From Hyaloraphidium curvatum (Eukaryota > Monoblepharomycota > Hyaloraphidiomycetes > Hyaloraphidiales > Hyaloraphidiaceae): a stretch of 64,000 bases of DNA. The notes below the pieces were generated by a model. That model saw nothing but the letters and a program-made list of their open reading frames with translations, was not told the DNA's origin and did no database searches. The stretch is from contig JAIVFI010000035.1 in assembly GCA_025558095.1 (NCBI GenBank), positions 310,001-374,000 of the forward strand, read 5' to 3'. Shown in pieces: positions 50,123 to 58,691 of this stretch. Positions within the stretch are counted from its first letter, which is position 1, and each line of letters starts with the position of its first letter. The position numbers and the translations under genes were made by a program.

Positions 50123-50183
50123 CGCACTCAGCGGAGCTGTGGGCGGGCAAGGGGTTTCCCAGAGTAGGACCGGGACAGAGTAG

Positions 50184-53100
50184 TTTCACACACAGCGGGA
50201 CGCGGTTCGGCTCAAGCAGACCGGCAAGCTTGGCCCGGACGAGATTGCTGCTGTACTCGCAATTCACCGAACGACGTATTTCCGTTGGATCCGCCGATGT
50301 GGGGCTCAGACCGTTCCGGACCATCCCCGCAAGGCCTTCCGCAAGGTGTCCGACGAAATGGTCCGGCACGTAGTTGACGAGGCCAAAGCTCGCGTCCGCG
50401 TGACGCAAAGGGAGCTCGCTGCTGACCTGGCGGAAAAGTTTGGCGTTTTGGTGTCGCAGCAGCATATCTCGCGGCTGCTGAAGGCCAACAGGGTCACGAG
50501 GAAGAAGCTCACCATTAAGAGCGCCGAAGCCCTGAAACAACCCGAGCGGCACCGCATGTTCCACGAGAGGGTCACTTCCTTTGATTTGGGGCGCCTAGGT
50601 GCCTTGGACGAGTCCTCATTCCAACTCAACGATCCGGGGCGCTTCGGCTACTCGGAGAAGGGGACTCCCGCCGTCGTATACCTGCCAGGGAACCGGGGCC
50701 CCAAGGTGACCCTTTGCCTCGCCATCTCACCCACTTCGCGACCCGGTAATCACACTGGAAACGTGATCTCGTACCAGATCTACAGCGGCAACATGAACAC
50801 CGAGAGGTTCTGTGCTTTTCTCAAGACTATTCGCGCCGGGGCTTGTGGGTCCGAGTCCCTGGGCGTTATCCTGGACAATGCGGGTTTCCACGGCTCTCCT
50901 CTGCGGGCAAGGAAGACCACGGACGGCACGGCAATAATAAAGAACCTCTCGGGCAAGTCGTTCCTTGCGGTCCAGGCCGTAGCAAAGGCCAACAATCTGA
51001 GCCTCATCTACCTGCGACCGAGATCGCCGGAATTTAACCCGACCGAGTACGTGTTTGCCACGATCAAGAACCTCGTGAGGCGGGACTGCCCCAGGACGGT
51101 GCCGGATCTCGTCCGGTCCATCGAGAGGGCCATTCAAATCGTCGGCCACGGCGATCTGATGGCGACGTTCCGGCACTGCTTGAAGCTAAGCGAGGCTGAG
51201 TTTGTGCGCATCGCGGAATCCGCGTCCGCCGGCAAATGTGTGGCGCGGAAGGTCACACTACAAGGTCAGATCTCTGCCTTTGCTTCTCCGGCTCCTCAGA
51301 CGTGCCCTTCCGCGATGGAGGGCGCAGCAGCGACCCAGACCGAAGCAAACGCGGCCGAGCGGCTCGCTGAAGAGGTGGACTGCCATGACGGTTGCGCATC
51401 GGGCATGCAGACCGCGCTGACTCACGACAACGCCCACTCCGAGCAGGCTCGCAACCTCGGCGTCGCCCACATCAACCCGCACCAAAAGCACACTTTGCTG
51501 ACCCTGAGGGAAGTTCTCCACGTCGATGGTTCGGCGAGGGAATTCTTTGGGCCGTGGAACGACTTCACGGACTCCGCTCAAAGGACCGCGGGCTTCGACG
51601 CTGCGGACGTCCTCGGGGGCCTCTCCAACCTCGGTGAAGCTCCTTTTGAGTTCATCTGTCAGCGGGTGGCATCGGGTCGGGGGTACAAGCTGGAGCGCGA
51701 GCTTTTCGTCGCGCGCCTCCGGAACATCGTCGCCCGGCGGCGCCGGGTCGCCCCCAGTCTGATCGGACCAGACGCACCGGCACCTCCCTTTTTCCGCCCC
51801 GCGGACGATGGCGCGGATCTGGGACCGCCGTCAGCCCCCGACGTCTCCATCTCCCAGCTGGATAACCTCGCCCGCTATGCCGACGTCCCACCGGAACTTA
51901 ACGTCTCGTTCAAGAAAGCCAGCCGCGCCGCGTTGAAACAGCTGTTTCCGCTCTCAGCCCTTGCAAACGACACCGTGCTGGACGAGAGGTTCGCCATCCT
52001 CCTATCGGGCCTTGTACGAAACGGTCGTGGACCAGAATGGCTACGTGCGCTCGCTGTTTCTCTCTGGGGACAGCTCGGCCCGGCCGGGAGGGCACGCATG
52101 GACAGCTTCGAAACATCCGAGACAGCACGTCGTGCTCTGCATTATGTTCACCAGCCCATTTCGAAGGTCTGTCGGTTGGAGTACCTCGAACGCGCGGCTT
52201 CGACCGAGTCTTTGCCAAGGAACCTTAGGCAGATACTGGAGGAAGCGTGCCGCACGCTGAAGGACCAGCAGGGCCGCTCGCTTTTTGATGCGTCGCCCGG
52301 CCTGGAGTACTTCCTTGCTTCGCTCTCCCTCCCGCAGCGATGCAAGATAGTCATGGCGGCGCGTTTGCCGGATAGTGTGGCGAGTCGCAATGCGGAAGGG
52401 CGCAAGAGATTCTTCGATTGGGCGGTGTGGAACCCGATGGCGGCCAACGAGGAGGCCCTCGCCATCGAGAATCCGGGTTCCGTTCCCGTGCTGGTGTGCA
52501 ATCTCCTGTCGAGCAGCCCCGCAATCCCAAACTGATTTTTGCCCCGGCAGCTGCTTTCGTTCCCGGGCCTTTTCCAGATGAGCCCGGGCGTACCTGGACT
52601 GGATGCAGAGGGCGATAAGCTGCTGGCAACCCTGTTCCTGAAGGCGGAGCAGCTCGGGTGGGAACACTCTTCCATGGTGACGCTGCGGCTGCTGGAGTCG
52701 GGGCCCAAGATGCGCGATTTTACCCTGGACTTGTGCGGTATGCCCGCGCTGGTGCGCGGTAGCAACCCCGAAGCACGGCAGGAGGCCGCGCGCACCGCGC
52801 TCGACGCCAAGCTCCACTTCCTCGCGGAATCCGTTGGACTGCTGGACTTCGGCCGTATCCAGAAGCGGGATTGTCCGCTCTGTTCCTTCAGTGTGCAGGT
52901 GGAAGGCGAAGTCCCGGCGAAGGCTGGGCGGCGGCGCAAGGTCGCGGCGTCGGGGATGGTGGCTGACGGAGCTGCGCGGGAGCGTGTCTATGACGCCGAG
53001 CTTCGGCTCCTCCACCACGTCAAGGGTGCGCACCTCACCTGCAGAGCGTGCCCGGGGAAGGGACATCAGTTCGACCTCGAGAGTGAGTTCCGGCAGCATG

Positions 53101-56100
53101 TCGAGGAGAACCACCGTGGGGCGTGAGTTGCACCGCGCTTTCCATGCATGCCTGGGACCGATGCGAAGCTGACCGCCGCCGCGGACAGTTTGGTCGCCCC
53201 AAGGAATCTCACCACGTCGTTCGGCCAGTTCATTGCCAACGCACACTACATTGTCCCGTTCGCGTCGACAAACCTCAAAGCCAACATTCCTACGGGCCTC
53301 GGCGGCTCGTCCTGCCCTTTCTGTTTCGCCGGTGGCGGGAGGCACCGGCAGGAGTGCTCTCCGAAGCGGCGGTGGGTCGCGCTCAACGGCTTCCTCGCAC
53401 TTGGCGACCCCCAGCACGAGCGATACAAGACGATGACGGAGCTGGCCGTCGAGTGGTTCCCGGCGGCCGAGGTGTGCCACCCATGGGCGCGGGGCCCGTA
53501 CGAGCAAGTCGGGCCCCTCATCACCAAGGCCTGCACCCTCGCCGCCATCTTGTTCAAGATCATCTGGACCAAGATCTTGTTGCAGATCCACAACAAAGAG
53601 CTCCCGGACCAAGACGGATCCGTCACGCAGGACATGCTCGCCAGCTTTCCCCCGTCTTACGTCGCAAAGATTGCCATCCACGCCGTGCTTGGTGCCGGCC
53701 AGATGTCCGCCGCTGTTGGAACCCGCCGCGCGGGAAAGCAGAAGTCGGCCGGGCTCGGTGCTGGGGCGAGATACTCGGGCCATTCGGGTGCGCCAGGAGT
53801 GGAGCAGCTTGTGGACGGCGGTCCGGACCTCGGAGCCAACGACGACGATCGAGACGAGGTGCTCGAGGACGTTGACTTCGAGGACGATGACGACGCGATG
53901 GCCGAGGACCAGGCCGGCGCCAAGATCTTGGCCGACTTCTTGCACGGCGAGCTGGATCAGATTGAGGACGAGGACTTGGTTACGGCTGAGGACACCCCCG
54001 ATCTCTCGCAGGTTGCTGATCAGGGCGCACCGTCCGTTCTCACCGTCGCGGAGCACAACGCAGCGGCAAAGCTTGTCCGCAAGGCGGCCGTTGCTGCGTT
54101 TGCAGAGGCGCGGGAACTTGTGGGCGAGACGTACGAAAAGCTCAGGCCGCTTTTCGTGCAGGGACCTTTGCTCCGCTATGCCGAGCAGGTCGCTTTCAAC
54201 CGAGCTCGAAGCGTGCCGCAGCGGCTGCTGACTGCGCTCAAGGTTCTCATCCGTCGCTTCCTACGCGGGGAGGTGAACGCGGGCGTCGGCCGGAGGCGGA
54301 TTGGCCCAATCCTCAGCTACGCTCTGGCAAAGCTCGGATATGGGGACGACGACTTCTCCAATTTCCCGTTCGAAAGCGCATTTGGCTGTGGTCTTGCCGA
54401 GGCCACGGAGCTCAGGGTCGGGCTGGGGAGGCTTTTCCGGCCGTTCAGAGGCTTGCAGCTGAACCGGATCGTTGACCTCCGGGATTCAAAACAGAAGCCG
54501 CCGGTGCCGGCAACCGTTTCGCAGCGGAGGGTTATCGCTCGGGTCCTGCAGGACAAGCAGGCGGGCAACCCCGTGGCGGCCGCGGTGCGAACCGTGAACC
54601 TGCCGAAGGGCAAGCCGCGCGGAAAGGTCGACGCGGAAACGGAGGCGGTGCGCAGCTACCTCCAGAACATTTGGGAGACGCTGCCGCGGGCCTCACCTGC
54701 GGAGAAGGCTGACTTGCGAAAGGTGGAGCTGCAGGAGCTGAGGGACTGGGTGGTTGCAAACCGTCTACAGCTTCGGAGCATCCCCTTCCGCTACCCGGCC
54801 GTGACCACGGCAACGATTCGGTCGACAGAGCAGAAACCCAAGTTCTGGGTCCCCGAGCACGCCGAGGACATGAACGAGGCGGCGGCGGCGGCATTGGTGG
54901 GGCAGAACCGGCCCCACTGGGAAAGCGAGAAGCTTCTGGTGGCGCGGATGAGCGAGTATGACCTCGACAAGTGTCGTTCATCCACGAACCCCGCGGACGA
55001 AGCCTTCGGCTTCCAGATGTGCTTCATCGCCCTGCACGAGCTCGAAAAGCAGGACGAGGCGCTGAAGAAGAGGGCCGCGTCCGCGGCTGCTGCACTGCCG
55101 GAACCTGGAACGGCGCGGAGGACGAGCACCGCCAGGGACCCCGATTCAACCCCAACTTTCCCAACCATTTCAACTGCTCCGGTCAAGGACAGGGAGGCTT
55201 CGAACAAGACCAGGAGGGCCCGCAACACGTGGCGGCCGCACCGCGTCGAGAAGCGGCATTACAGCAAGAATGGCTCCCCGAAGCGATGGCACGGGTTCGT
55301 CGTGAGCTTCCGTAAGCGCCGACCGCAGCCGGGGCCCGAGGGACTCGCCAAGAAGGAGACCATGGAGACGAAGCGGCGGGAGCGCAAGGCGGCCGCCGCC
55401 GCCGCGATGGCGGGGCTTGGCGCCGCCCAGACCGGCAAGGAAAAGGCAGCCTCGTGGGCGCGGCGGAAGCTTCGGGCTGCGGTCGCCGAAATCAGCTTGT
55501 CCCCCGTGACCGTCTACATCTCGGCCTCGGATCTGCCCGAGTTTTTGTCCAAGCTGGGCGTGGAGGTCGCGCCTGGCATCGACACCTCGCGCGTTGACTC
55601 GGACTACCTATTCGGCCACCTGCTCAACGGCGGCAACCAACTCGTCAACGAGGACCGGCTCTTCCGCCTCCGTCAGCAGGGCAAAGTCTCGGCAAGGGGC
55701 CATGCCGCCGCCACGCAGCCCATCTATCGTCGCACCGCGGACGTTCTGAGGTACTCCGGCGTCCGGGGCATCTATCATTGCGGCAGCACCCTGGGCATTC
55801 TTAACGAAGAAGTCTCCTTCGTGGAAAAGGTCTCGTTCCAGCAGTCGCAGCAGCAGGAGCGGCAAAACACGACACAGGACGTCGAGCCGCCAAAGCGCGC
55901 AGCGCATTCGCCAGCAGCCGCGCCGGCTCCTCCTGTTCAAACTCGGCCCACCGTCTCCGTTCCCGCCGCAGCTCATGTGCCCGCCGGTCTTGCTGCTTTC
56001 GAAGTGGATGTTTCGTTCCCTCGCGATGTTCCGATGGATCCCTACCCGCCGCTCTACACCGGTCCATGGCTGCCAAACGGCGATCCGGACCCGCCGTGCG

Positions 56101-58550
56101 ACATGGCTGTCTTCGATGGTGGGCATTTTGCTCAGTGACGCACGGGTTCGGAGGCTGATCGGATCCTCACTTTTCCAGGCCAGAATCGGATTTGGCATGG
56201 GGGCATGGTCTACTACCTGCAGGCGACGGCCCAAGGGGACGAATCGGTCCCGATGGATTGGGAGCCCTCTTATTGTGCCAGCAGCAACCTTAACTTCACC
56301 ACCATGCCTTCCGAGCCTCCGGCGGACTGCGGCATCCCCGCCGCGGTCCCGCCGGAACCCCCGCCCTTTTTCTCCTTCGTCGAACCACCAGCCTCGACTT
56401 CTCTCCCTGCCTCCATTCCCCCGGAACCGCCCCCGCATTGGGTGCACGACCCGTGCTCGTGCTGTCAAGATGCCGCCTGCAAGGCCGTGGACTGTGCGCC
56501 CAACGTGTTCGCGCCCCTGAGCTCGGGGCACAACGACCCTCCCTGCGCGACTGTCTCGCCCGGTGACTCGGTGCCCGAGACTTCTGTGCATCCATGCGCG
56601 GCCCTTCCTTTCCCCGACTTCTCGCCGCCACTTCCTTCCCCGTTCCTTTCTTGCTTCCCTCCCGAAGTCGTCGTTTGCGCGGTCGAACCGTCGCCGCCGA
56701 CGGTAACGGTCGAGGGCAAGTTCGCTGCCCCCGTACCTCCTCAGCTGGCCCCGACCCCGGTTCCGCTCCCGCCGCGTTCTGCCGAGCCGTTGCCGCGGCC
56801 CCCGGTCGACTTCAAGACTGGCATTCCCGTCTACTACCTCAGCCGCCCTGACCATGTGTCCGTGCTGGCACCCAATCTCCTGCACATGCCGACGCAGGCG
56901 GAAATGTTCGAGCGGGCCGAGCGCGGCGAGCCAGTGGAGGGCGGGGTCGTCGACGTGGATCCGAATCGCTGGTTTCTGGCTGTTGCCAACCGCCGCGTCG
57001 ACGTGCGGCTCGTTGCCAAGAGCCTGAACCCCGGGCCGAACGGACGCTACGACTTCGCCAACAGTCATCTGCCGGGGACAACGGAGCGCATCACCGTGAC
57101 CAATGCCGACGGCACCAAGTCGCACTACGTGCCGAAGCGGGCGAACCCGTCATAGGCCGACGGTTCCGTCAGCTTCGGGAGGATCGTCGGCTTCCACCTA
57201 GAGCACTCCTGCTCCGATACTAAGCGGATCGCAAGGTCTTTCGGTCCGTCGCCGCCTGCCGCTGGAGCGTGCAGACACCACCCGCTCTGGGAGCCCAAGA
57301 TCTCGGAGTTCAAGCCGCCGGCGCCCGATTCGCGCCCCAACGACGCTGCAAAGGCGGAGAAGCACGCTCGGCGCAACGTCGAACTGTTCCCGACCCCTGG
57401 CGGCTGCACGGACGAGTTTGGTGCCAAGCTGTGGGGCGAGGTCGCTGGTGCCGGCCGTGCGGGGACCCCGGCGCTGCCGGAGCTCATCCTCGGTGTTCCG
57501 GCCAAGCTCGACCGCCGCCTGTGCGGCTACGACAAGGCGGCCGCGCGTCTGAATGCCACCAAGCGGACCACCATGCTGGACGTCAACGATTGCGAGGGCA
57601 ACCCTGTGCAGAAGTCTCTCCACGATTTCGAGCGCGACCTGCCCTCTCAACGCACAACGAACAGTGCAGCCTTCTCGGACTACACGAGGGCGCTGCTGCC
57701 ACAACTCGACCGCATCCTGGACGTCTACTGTTCCGGAGAACGGAGGTGGGCAAGCCAATCCCTGTGGCAACGACTTCGCTCACGCATCCTGCAGCCTGGA
57801 TCGTGTGCGCACGATTCGCCGGCGCCGCGAGGTCCTCAGCTGGATCTGTCGCGACATGTGTCGCAACCCGTATTCGGGCAAGTACGATCCACAGACGACC
57901 ATCGCATACGGCGCCGCGCGATTCGGCCATGCGAGCAAGGGCGGCCCGGCCTCCCGGATCGTTCGCTTCAGGGCGGAGCTGGCCAAGGCCGGGATCATGG
58001 TCTTGGTCAACGAGTACCTCACGTCCCAAATGTGCAGCTGGTGCGGCAGCCGCCGTGATCATCCGACTCGCCTGACGTCCTTTCCAGCTGCAAGACCACC
58101 TATGTCGTCGGAATCCGGAACCCCGGCTCCAAGGGCGAGGTGCGCGGGGTGAAATACTGTCCCCTCTGCCGCCGCTTCTGGATGCGCGACGTGAACAGTG
58201 TGCACTCCATGGAGCACCTCTTCTGGTTCGGCCTCATCACCGGAGGGGAGCGCCCCTGGCCGTTCAGGCCGGACACCAGGAAGCCGAAGCCGCAGCCCAA
58301 GCTCCGAGCTGGGACTGGTGCAGCGCCGCGCAAGTCCGCGGGTGAGCGCGCTCGCATTCGCGACGGTCATCCCGAGCGTCATCCCGAGCTGATCCGGGAG
58401 CTCCAGGTGCCGCCACAGGCCGCAAGCGTACGGCCGCAAGCGCCGCGAATGGGTCGGTCAAGAAGCTCAAGCCGGCAAGCTGACCTGGCCGCGGAAACAG
58501 TTACAAGTTGGCGTGCCATGCACCGCGTGGGCGCCATTGCATTTGCTTGA
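50184..58550 (+). mobile_element. Tc1/mariner-type element carrying a Fanzor nuclease
   Basis: The whole 8.4-kb interval is occupied by one transposon-derived coding unit, inserted between an SH3-ankyrin gene and an MscL gene. It has a DDE transposase at the left and a Fanzor (TnpB-like) nuclease at the right. Published surveys describe Fanzor1 proteins inside several eukaryotic DNA-transposon families, including Mariner-type ones, so the pairing fits. I could not find terminal inverted repeats or a target-site duplication by eye in 50123-50183 or 58551-58691. The true element borders are therefore undefined, and the copy may be incomplete or fixed. Confidence 0.8.
50184..58550 (+). CDS. DDE transposase - Fanzor (RuvC) fusion-like protein, seven exons
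   Basis: Proposed exons 50184..52493, 52551..53122, 53189..56118, 56179..57095, 57156..57745, 57795..58040 and 58088..58550 form one frame of about 2675 residues. Numbering is from 50184. Residues about 1-105 hold two helix-turn-helix units (GPDEIAAVLAIHRTTYFRWI; TQRELAADLAEKFGVLVSQQ). The transposase triad is D142 (LDESS), D231 (LDNAGFHGS) and E288 (NPTEYVFATIK). The middle has C2H2-like fingers (RDCPLCSF; CRACPGKGHQ with H-x4-H; SCPFCFAGGGRH) and an acidic linker. The nuclease part has RuvC-I D2198 (VVDVDPNRWFLAV), RuvC-II E2513 (VLVNEYLTSQMC), a C-x2-C / C-x2-C zinc ribbon (second pair CPLC) and RuvC-III D2556 (FWMRDVNSVHS). All introns are 33-66 nt class with local donor types. There is no in-frame ATG before 50358, and a TAG lies at 50181. 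A two-gene model (second start 53148) is the alternative. Confidence 0.72.
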
Positions 58551-58691
58551 TCGAGGTGGAGTCCGTCAGGGACCGCCTTTTATTCGCAGGCTCGATGATG
58601 AACATTGCTGCTAGGCCGCAAAGGATTGCGGCACAGTGGGCACAGTAGCAGTTTCTGAGAGTGTCTAAGGCATCTGAGGCAGCTGGCCCGA
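58551..58691 (+). ncRNA. Candidate guide-RNA (omega/fRNA-like) region with perfect hairpin
   Basis: This 141-bp stretch directly after the Fanzor stop and before MscL holds a perfect 7-bp stem. GCCGCAA at 58615-58621 pairs with TTGCGGC at 58626-58632, with loop AGGA. CACAGT follows twice. Guide RNAs of TnpB and Fanzor are usually encoded at or just beyond the 3' end of the nuclease gene, so this is the first place to look. Assignment as RNA is inference, and a transcription terminator or promoter hairpin would look the same. Confidence 0.3.

Follow-up and report, generated by a model that had tools for sequence, protein, structure and literature searches.

The 64,000-nucleotide stretch of DNA analyzed here (the window) carries what is best explained as a broken copy of a fungal DNA transposon, one that is young and multi-copy and whose single protein of approximately 2,690 residues would have an HTH-DDE N-terminal part and a RuvC C-terminal part; we give this reading a probability of roughly 0.6. 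In the gene model, an IS630-type DDE transposase is fused to a Fanzor-like RuvC nuclease. The capture of Fanzor1 by mariner elements, as separate proteins, is already known; the element differs from these in its fusion within one gene model.

The element, a member of a family designated A, occupies positions 50181-58667 (+ strand, 8487 bp), its boundaries being placed by the alignment of ten copies. The genome (31.9 Mb, 55 contigs) holds at least ten copies of family A and at least five of a second family, B; all fifteen counted copies were retrieved, and both counts are lower bounds. Across the shared stretch, identity of the A copies to the window copy is 99.7-99.9%, which indicates that family A moved recently. 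The order of the parts is the same in family B, and it is unchanged in two farther diverged elements, C and D. The parts of the window copy and its flanks are as follows.

50149..50160, + strand: core of the target motif, A-family type, in the host flank (-32 to -21 from the insertion; spacing holds in 8/10 A copies)
50179..50180, no strand: left 2-bp target-site duplication, AG, identical to 58668-58669
50181..58667, + strand: transposon copy, family A, 8487 bp (10 aligned copies)
50181..50195, + strand: left terminal repeat, from comparison with other copies
50202..52493, + strand: exon 1, HTH and DDE_3 transposase with conserved extension (PF13358, E 5.3e-15; conserved in B)
50607, 50874 and 51045, + strand: DDE triad in exon 1 (D, D and E, codons read)
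52494..52550, + strand: putative intron, 57 nt, phase 0, GT-AG, with B counterpart
52551..53122, + strand: exon 2, Cys/His-rich, zinc-finger-like by eye (36% identical to B; no Pfam match)
53123..53188, + strand: putative intron, 66 nt, GT-AG, frame kept
53189..56118, + strand: exon 3, long middle region (piecewise 33-42% identical to B)
56119..56178, + strand: putative intron, 60 nt, GT-AG (GTATGT at the homologous codon in B)
56179..57745, + strand: exon 4, Pro-rich linker, then RuvC-I
56958..56960, + strand: RuvC-I aspartate (DPN), invariant in 4/4 families
57153..57155, + strand: private in-frame exon stop, TAG (0/9 other copies; B intronless here)
57746..57794, + strand: putative intron, 49 nt, phase 2, with B counterpart
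57795..58040, + strand: exon 5, RuvC-II and first ribbon half (81% identical to B over 70 residues)
58012..58014, + strand: RuvC-II glutamate at the Ealt position, with six residues between it and the first ribbon Cys, invariant in 4/4 families
58033..58035, + strand: ribbon Cys 1, invariant
58041..58087, + strand: putative intron, 47 nt, phase 2 (B counterpart GTGAGT...CAG)
58088..58547, + strand: exon 6, second ribbon half, RuvC-III and basic tail (67% identical to B over 72 residues; B conservation stops at about 58295)
58089..58091, + strand: ribbon Cys 2, corrected position, matching the second CxxC Cys of B, C and D
58158..58169, + strand: ribbon Cys 3 and 4 (CPLC), invariant
58188..58190, + strand: RuvC-III aspartate, invariant
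58502..58581, + strand: structured 3′ RNA candidate, two stems then TTTT, common to A and B
58649..58667, + strand: right terminal repeat, two bases short here
58668..58669, no strand: right 2-bp target-site duplication, AG

The copy in the window is dead. An in-frame TAG at 57153-57155 falls within an exon, between RuvC-I and RuvC-II; all nine other A copies have a sense codon there, and family B reads through the homologous region without an intron. In addition, approximately 145 nt following the left terminal repeat, including the candidate start (the in-frame ATG of the sister copies being taken as such), have been swapped for 5 nt, and two bases are missing from the right end. Since the candidate start is missing and the exon contains a private stop, this locus should not make a whole nuclease, and the "catalytically competent nuclease" that a preliminary description had proposed for this copy has to be given up; competence may still be a property of the family, as conservation suggests. 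An assembly error might account for the TAG by itself, and is unlikely to explain the whole, given three separate lesions.

The element lies directly upstream of, and in the same orientation as, an MscL-like gene (PF01741, 58692-59633), and the window also encodes a fungal transcription-factor domain (PF04082). This domain, together with a negative search for the light-harvesting family PF00504, indicates a fungal genome.

Insertion sites, target motif and candidate 3′ RNA

The ends of the A elements read T[A/C]GTTTCACACACAG and CTGAGAGTGTAGCTA. Target-site duplications (TSDs) of 2 bp border nine of the ten A copies (AG, CG, AT, CC, AC, GC, CC, TG and TG) and three of the five B copies (CG, CT and CC), none of them being TA. 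An AAGGGRYTTCC-like sequence is common to the upstream flanks of the A copies: the core spans -32 to -21, weaker columns extend over -36 to -18, and all ten copies have a T at -25. Its best 12 columns carry 8.36 bits, compared with 5.85 for the best of 3000 random sets, and leave-one-out scoring gave P <= 0.0032 in eight of the ten copies, the two off-motif copies being L010 (P 0.12) and L012 (P 0.15).

Three of the five B copies have a GCGCGTCGATCAC-like sequence upstream at almost the distance seen in A, and in the other two it is shifted. This motif, drawn from five sites, is weaker: its best 12 columns carry 7.68 bits (best of 3000 random sets, 7.54), and the signal is reached by 5 of 3000 random sets with 8 columns and by none with 12 or 16. 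Two B copies, L019 (P 0.04) and L020 (P 0.15), fit poorly at the motif spacing, and both are without TSDs. The motifs of A and B differ in sequence but occupy about the same position. No signal comparable to the upstream motif was seen in the downstream flanks. The terminal repeats contain neither motif, the best scores there being 0.4 or less, and derivation of the target motif from them is unsupported.

These sites bear on the possibility that the nuclease acts in ordinary TnpB/Fanzor homing, whereby a guide from the right flank would direct recutting of the healed donor, repair would restore the transposon, and the target motif would be unrelated. Such a role is described for TnpB and suggested for Fanzors in the available part of one report (PMC10432273), and a structured RNA near the 3′ end of the element is consistent with it. 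Families A and B share an 80-nt stretch (58502-58581; local score 63, against 32 for the best of 1000 shuffles), which folds into two stems followed by TTTT; part of it coincides with the end of the A reading frame, which is unconserved, and this candidate RNA lies where a Fanzor reRNA would be expected. Rfam contained no match for it, and the short words that the 3′ region of element C has in common with it did not rise above shuffles. Homing, however, needs a TAM directly beside the target, and among the ten A copies the information at positions -7 to -1 does not exceed 0.36 bits. Moreover, the best match of a flank guide in the 15 copies covered 10 of 12 bases, a level that most of 60 shuffles also reached, so that guides taken from the right flanks are unsupported at the sensitivity used. 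We consider homing an unlikely, if still respectable, account of the element.

As to a possible guide carried within the element, GCAAAGGATTGCGGCA, near the 3′ end of A, scores 11.4 against the target motif (99th percentile in random stretches, 9.7); a coding site inside the A element outscores it (12.0), and family B has no internal match to its own target motif near the element ends. A perfect 7-bp hairpin at 58615-58632 (GCCGCAA-AGGA-TTGCGGC), noticed by eye, overlaps the site resembling the A target motif.

Target choice might instead be made by a host promoter factor, the motif being a promoter element, in the way that Ty3 uses TFIIIB for this purpose. An ATG opening at least 60 codons was present within 60 nt downstream of 10 of the 15 insertions (random rate 0.25, p 8e-4), but the control, left flanks read on the reverse strand, gave 7/15; the gene-start signal is therefore weak, and we do not lean on it. 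In the genome, the B pattern was found 79 times, with 48 expected from a Markov model and 6 for the reversed pattern, and 9 of 20 other B-pattern sites read were followed at 40-110 nt by their first ATG-led frame (random rate 0.26). The A pattern, in contrast, was found 45 times (66 expected; 49 for the reversed pattern), and such a frame followed 6 of the 20 A-pattern sites read. A general promoter motif is thus unsupported for A and possible for B, and a host factor as the agent of target choice seems to us rather improbable.

One A copy (right flank of L018; L043) seems to have landed in the leader of a further IS630-like transposase gene, which by eye is related to the C23 copy.

Gene model and the spliced RuvC region

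With its five GT-AG introns removed, the window model runs to 2,689 codons, of which one is a stop. Its long middle part has zinc-finger-like cysteines, and the zinc ribbon is split by the 47-nt intron. One A copy (L013) has an in-frame deletion of 171 bp in the Pro-rich linker before RuvC-I (window 56312-56482).

The element might alternatively encode two proteins: the transposase would end at the TGA at 52533, with the intron 52494-52550 retained, and the middle and Fanzor-like part would begin at another start, or alternative splicing would yield both forms. The transposase frame indeed runs open over 783 aa in the window and 808 in the sister copies, with its stop inside the proposed intron, and the known mariner-Fanzor elements encode separate proteins, at least as the accessible text describes them (PMC3627910). 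Against this, the same codon in family B carries an intron consistent with splicing, and coding conservation restarts at the acceptor. In family D, one frame extends from the middle part across RuvC and contains one stop, probably intronic; the join to the transposase lies outside that frame. We regard two proteins as distinctly unlikely. In a 1374-aa frame of family D (L042; C2:396600-406500), a weak match to an OTU-like cysteine protease (E 0.03, below the cut-off) falls midway along the giant protein.

The frame changes at 57746 and 58041 had been attributed in the preliminary description to introns, and this is also how we read them. Both introns (57746-57794, 49 nt; 58041-58087, 47 nt) are GT-AG and look real, because B has introns at the same codons and in the same phases, and coding identity stops and restarts at the splice points; all three introns aligned between A and B have B counterparts. 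The spliced A C-terminus matches Pfam TNB barely above the cut-off (26.4 bits against 26.3; E 7.8e-6), compared with 20 bits (E 7.8e-4) for the unspliced frame, and TNB is matched by 4/4 family members at E <= 0.1. The unspliced frame 1 reads CSWCGSRR, resembling CSDCHSRR of element C; the spliced ribbon was nevertheless kept, because B has the same intron and the downstream half is conserved. That there are no introns and that the frame changes reflect decay of a dead gene, as the private stop and absent candidate start of the window copy could suggest, is highly improbable, given that no copy carries an indel undoing the frame changes at the two introns, that the B introns are in the same phases, and that the spliced reading is under purifying selection (A versus B: dN 0.43, dS 1.40, dN/dS approximately 0.30 over 464 codons; C-termini 55% identical).

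The RuvC triad was found where it had been placed: D (GAT, 56958-56960), E (GAG, 58012-58014) and D (GAC, 58188-58190) follow in this order, with the C4 ribbon between the glutamate and the last aspartate. The ribbon cysteines at 58033, 58158 and 58167 are likewise present. The codon split by the intron (58039-58040/58088) does read Cys, as had been proposed, but it is not a ribbon ligand: it is a variable residue (x) within CxxC, Lys in B. The spliced ribbon region reads EYLTSQMCSCCKTTYVV in family A and EYLTSQMCSKCLTTYVV in family B, and from these readings ribbon Cys 2 is the codon 58089-58091. These seven positions (D, E, four C, D) do not vary among the four aligned families (A-D).

Class membership of the two domains

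The assignment of the triad and ribbon to a Fanzor-like nuclease stands. The segment EYLTSQMCSCC of spliced A conforms to ExxxxxxCxxC, with equal spacing in B, C and D; this alternative glutamate is a Fanzor feature as defined in the consulted part of one survey (PMC10711439). A PDB profile search pointed the same way: six of the 12 listed matches are of TnpB/Fanzor type, three of them under E 0.001, namely TnpB-like L79 (9b0l, 2e-4) and LaTranC (9jfo and 9jfq, 4.5e-4 and 5.6e-4). These best matches run across RuvC-II, the ribbon and RuvC-III, and are limited to approximately 50 residues of deposited chains of 478-575 residues. Weaker matches were Guillardia Fanzor1 (E 0.074) and two TnpB-type entries (0.23 and 0.39); the remaining six are unrelated proteins with E of 0.17 or more.

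Several features depart from published Fanzors. The RuvC-I motif is DPN in 4/4 families and not DPG, which the same survey, so far as its text was available, gives as near exclusive at this site in Fanzors (PMC10711439). From RuvC-I to RuvC-II there are 335 residues (D2192 to E2527, window model), outside the ranges found in the accessible portions of two papers: 125-275 for the distance to RuvC-II/ribbon (PMC3627910) and 120-160 in a search pattern (PMC10711439). The CxxC to CxxC spacing gives a mixed picture, being 22 in spliced A and B and 14 in C and D; that search pattern has 12-18 (PMC10711439, seen in part). No TAM-like conservation was detected at -7 to -1 in the ten A copies. Because DPG, the RuvC spacing and a TAM were looked for and not found, we call the nuclease Fanzor-like rather than a proven Fanzor. 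AlphaFold modelled the RuvC region of family D only poorly (pLDDT 46.6), and protein-database searches with exon 3 and with the four-family C-terminal alignment, in which the searchable lengths fell short of 2,700-residue proteins, returned no relative.

The transposase belongs to the Tc1/mariner/IS630 clan: PF13358 scores above its cut-off and HTH_32 just below, and D, D and E are present, although the TA duplication of the clan is absent from the A and B copies. Element C (L039) has PEFDPAGHV where A has PEFNPTEYV, and so seems to have lost the DDE glutamate; its RuvC triad is intact.

Relation to known systems and a proposed mechanism

Besides the TnpB-like L79 and LaTranC, three kinds of system are close to the element. 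Type V-K CRISPR-associated transposons combine a Cas12/TnpB-family protein with a DDE-type transposase, as separate proteins with an explicit guide RNA, and insert at a set distance from a recognised site. The element resembles them in both components and in set-distance insertion, and differs in having one gene model and an intact RuvC triad. The mariner elements PGv-1 and PUl-1 carry Fanzor1 as a separate protein and have TA TSDs, according to the part of the original description available (Bao and Jurka 2013, PMC3627910). Here too one DNA transposon has a Tc1/mariner/IS630-clan transposase and a TnpB-like protein, but in a single gene model, with varied 2-bp TSDs and a set spacing to a target motif. 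SpuFz1, a fungal Fanzor1 of 638 aa, has its RuvC metal site at D383, N385, E541 and D606, with a non-coding RNA at its locus and, as reported in the section consulted, no transposase found between the repeats of its elements (Saito 2023, PMC10432273). Our nuclease is likewise fungal and has Asn two residues after the RuvC-I Asp (DPN); unlike SpuFz1, it would form part of a protein of approximately 2,690 aa with a DDE transposase. Fanzors are described as stand-alone proteins in the accessible parts of three reports (PMC10432273, PMC11423790, PMC10711439), and no transposase-Fanzor fusion was found in the literature searched, which was covered by titles and the beginnings of abstracts and included few subscription papers.

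On the reading we prefer, splicing would yield a single polypeptide in which (i) the DDE domain would excise and insert the element, as suggested by the transposase family and the TSDs, (ii) a family-specific part of the protein would dock on the upstream motif, so that the DDE domain joins the element approximately 20 bp away, as the geometry of the motif suggests, and (iii) the RuvC domain would be an RNA-dependent nuclease kept for the benefit of the element, possibly cutting DNA with RNA made from the 3′ end of the element; homology and conservation point to this last role. As the reader of the motif, we lean slightly towards the Fanzor lobe or the zinc-finger region over a host factor. 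A more specific version, in which the RNA-loaded Fanzor lobe binds the family-specific site and the fused DDE domain inserts approximately 20 bp downstream, would make the element a eukaryotic, single-protein analogue of CRISPR-associated transposons, and we hold it to be quite improbable.

This element bears on the role that Fanzors play for their transposons. If transposase and Fanzor-like nuclease are one polypeptide, both activities act at the same DNA, and their link is directly testable. Insertion at a set distance, with a different motif in each family, also offers a eukaryotic DNA transposon with measurable target choice.

The genome also contains a second, more canonical Fanzor1-like gene. 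A search for such genes gave weak matches at five places (C31, C7, C2 twice and C34; E 0.25-0.33), of which the C31 locus was read (L041:1-3054; G000:C31:257500-262500); it encodes LDPGST and EDMTSQICAAC.
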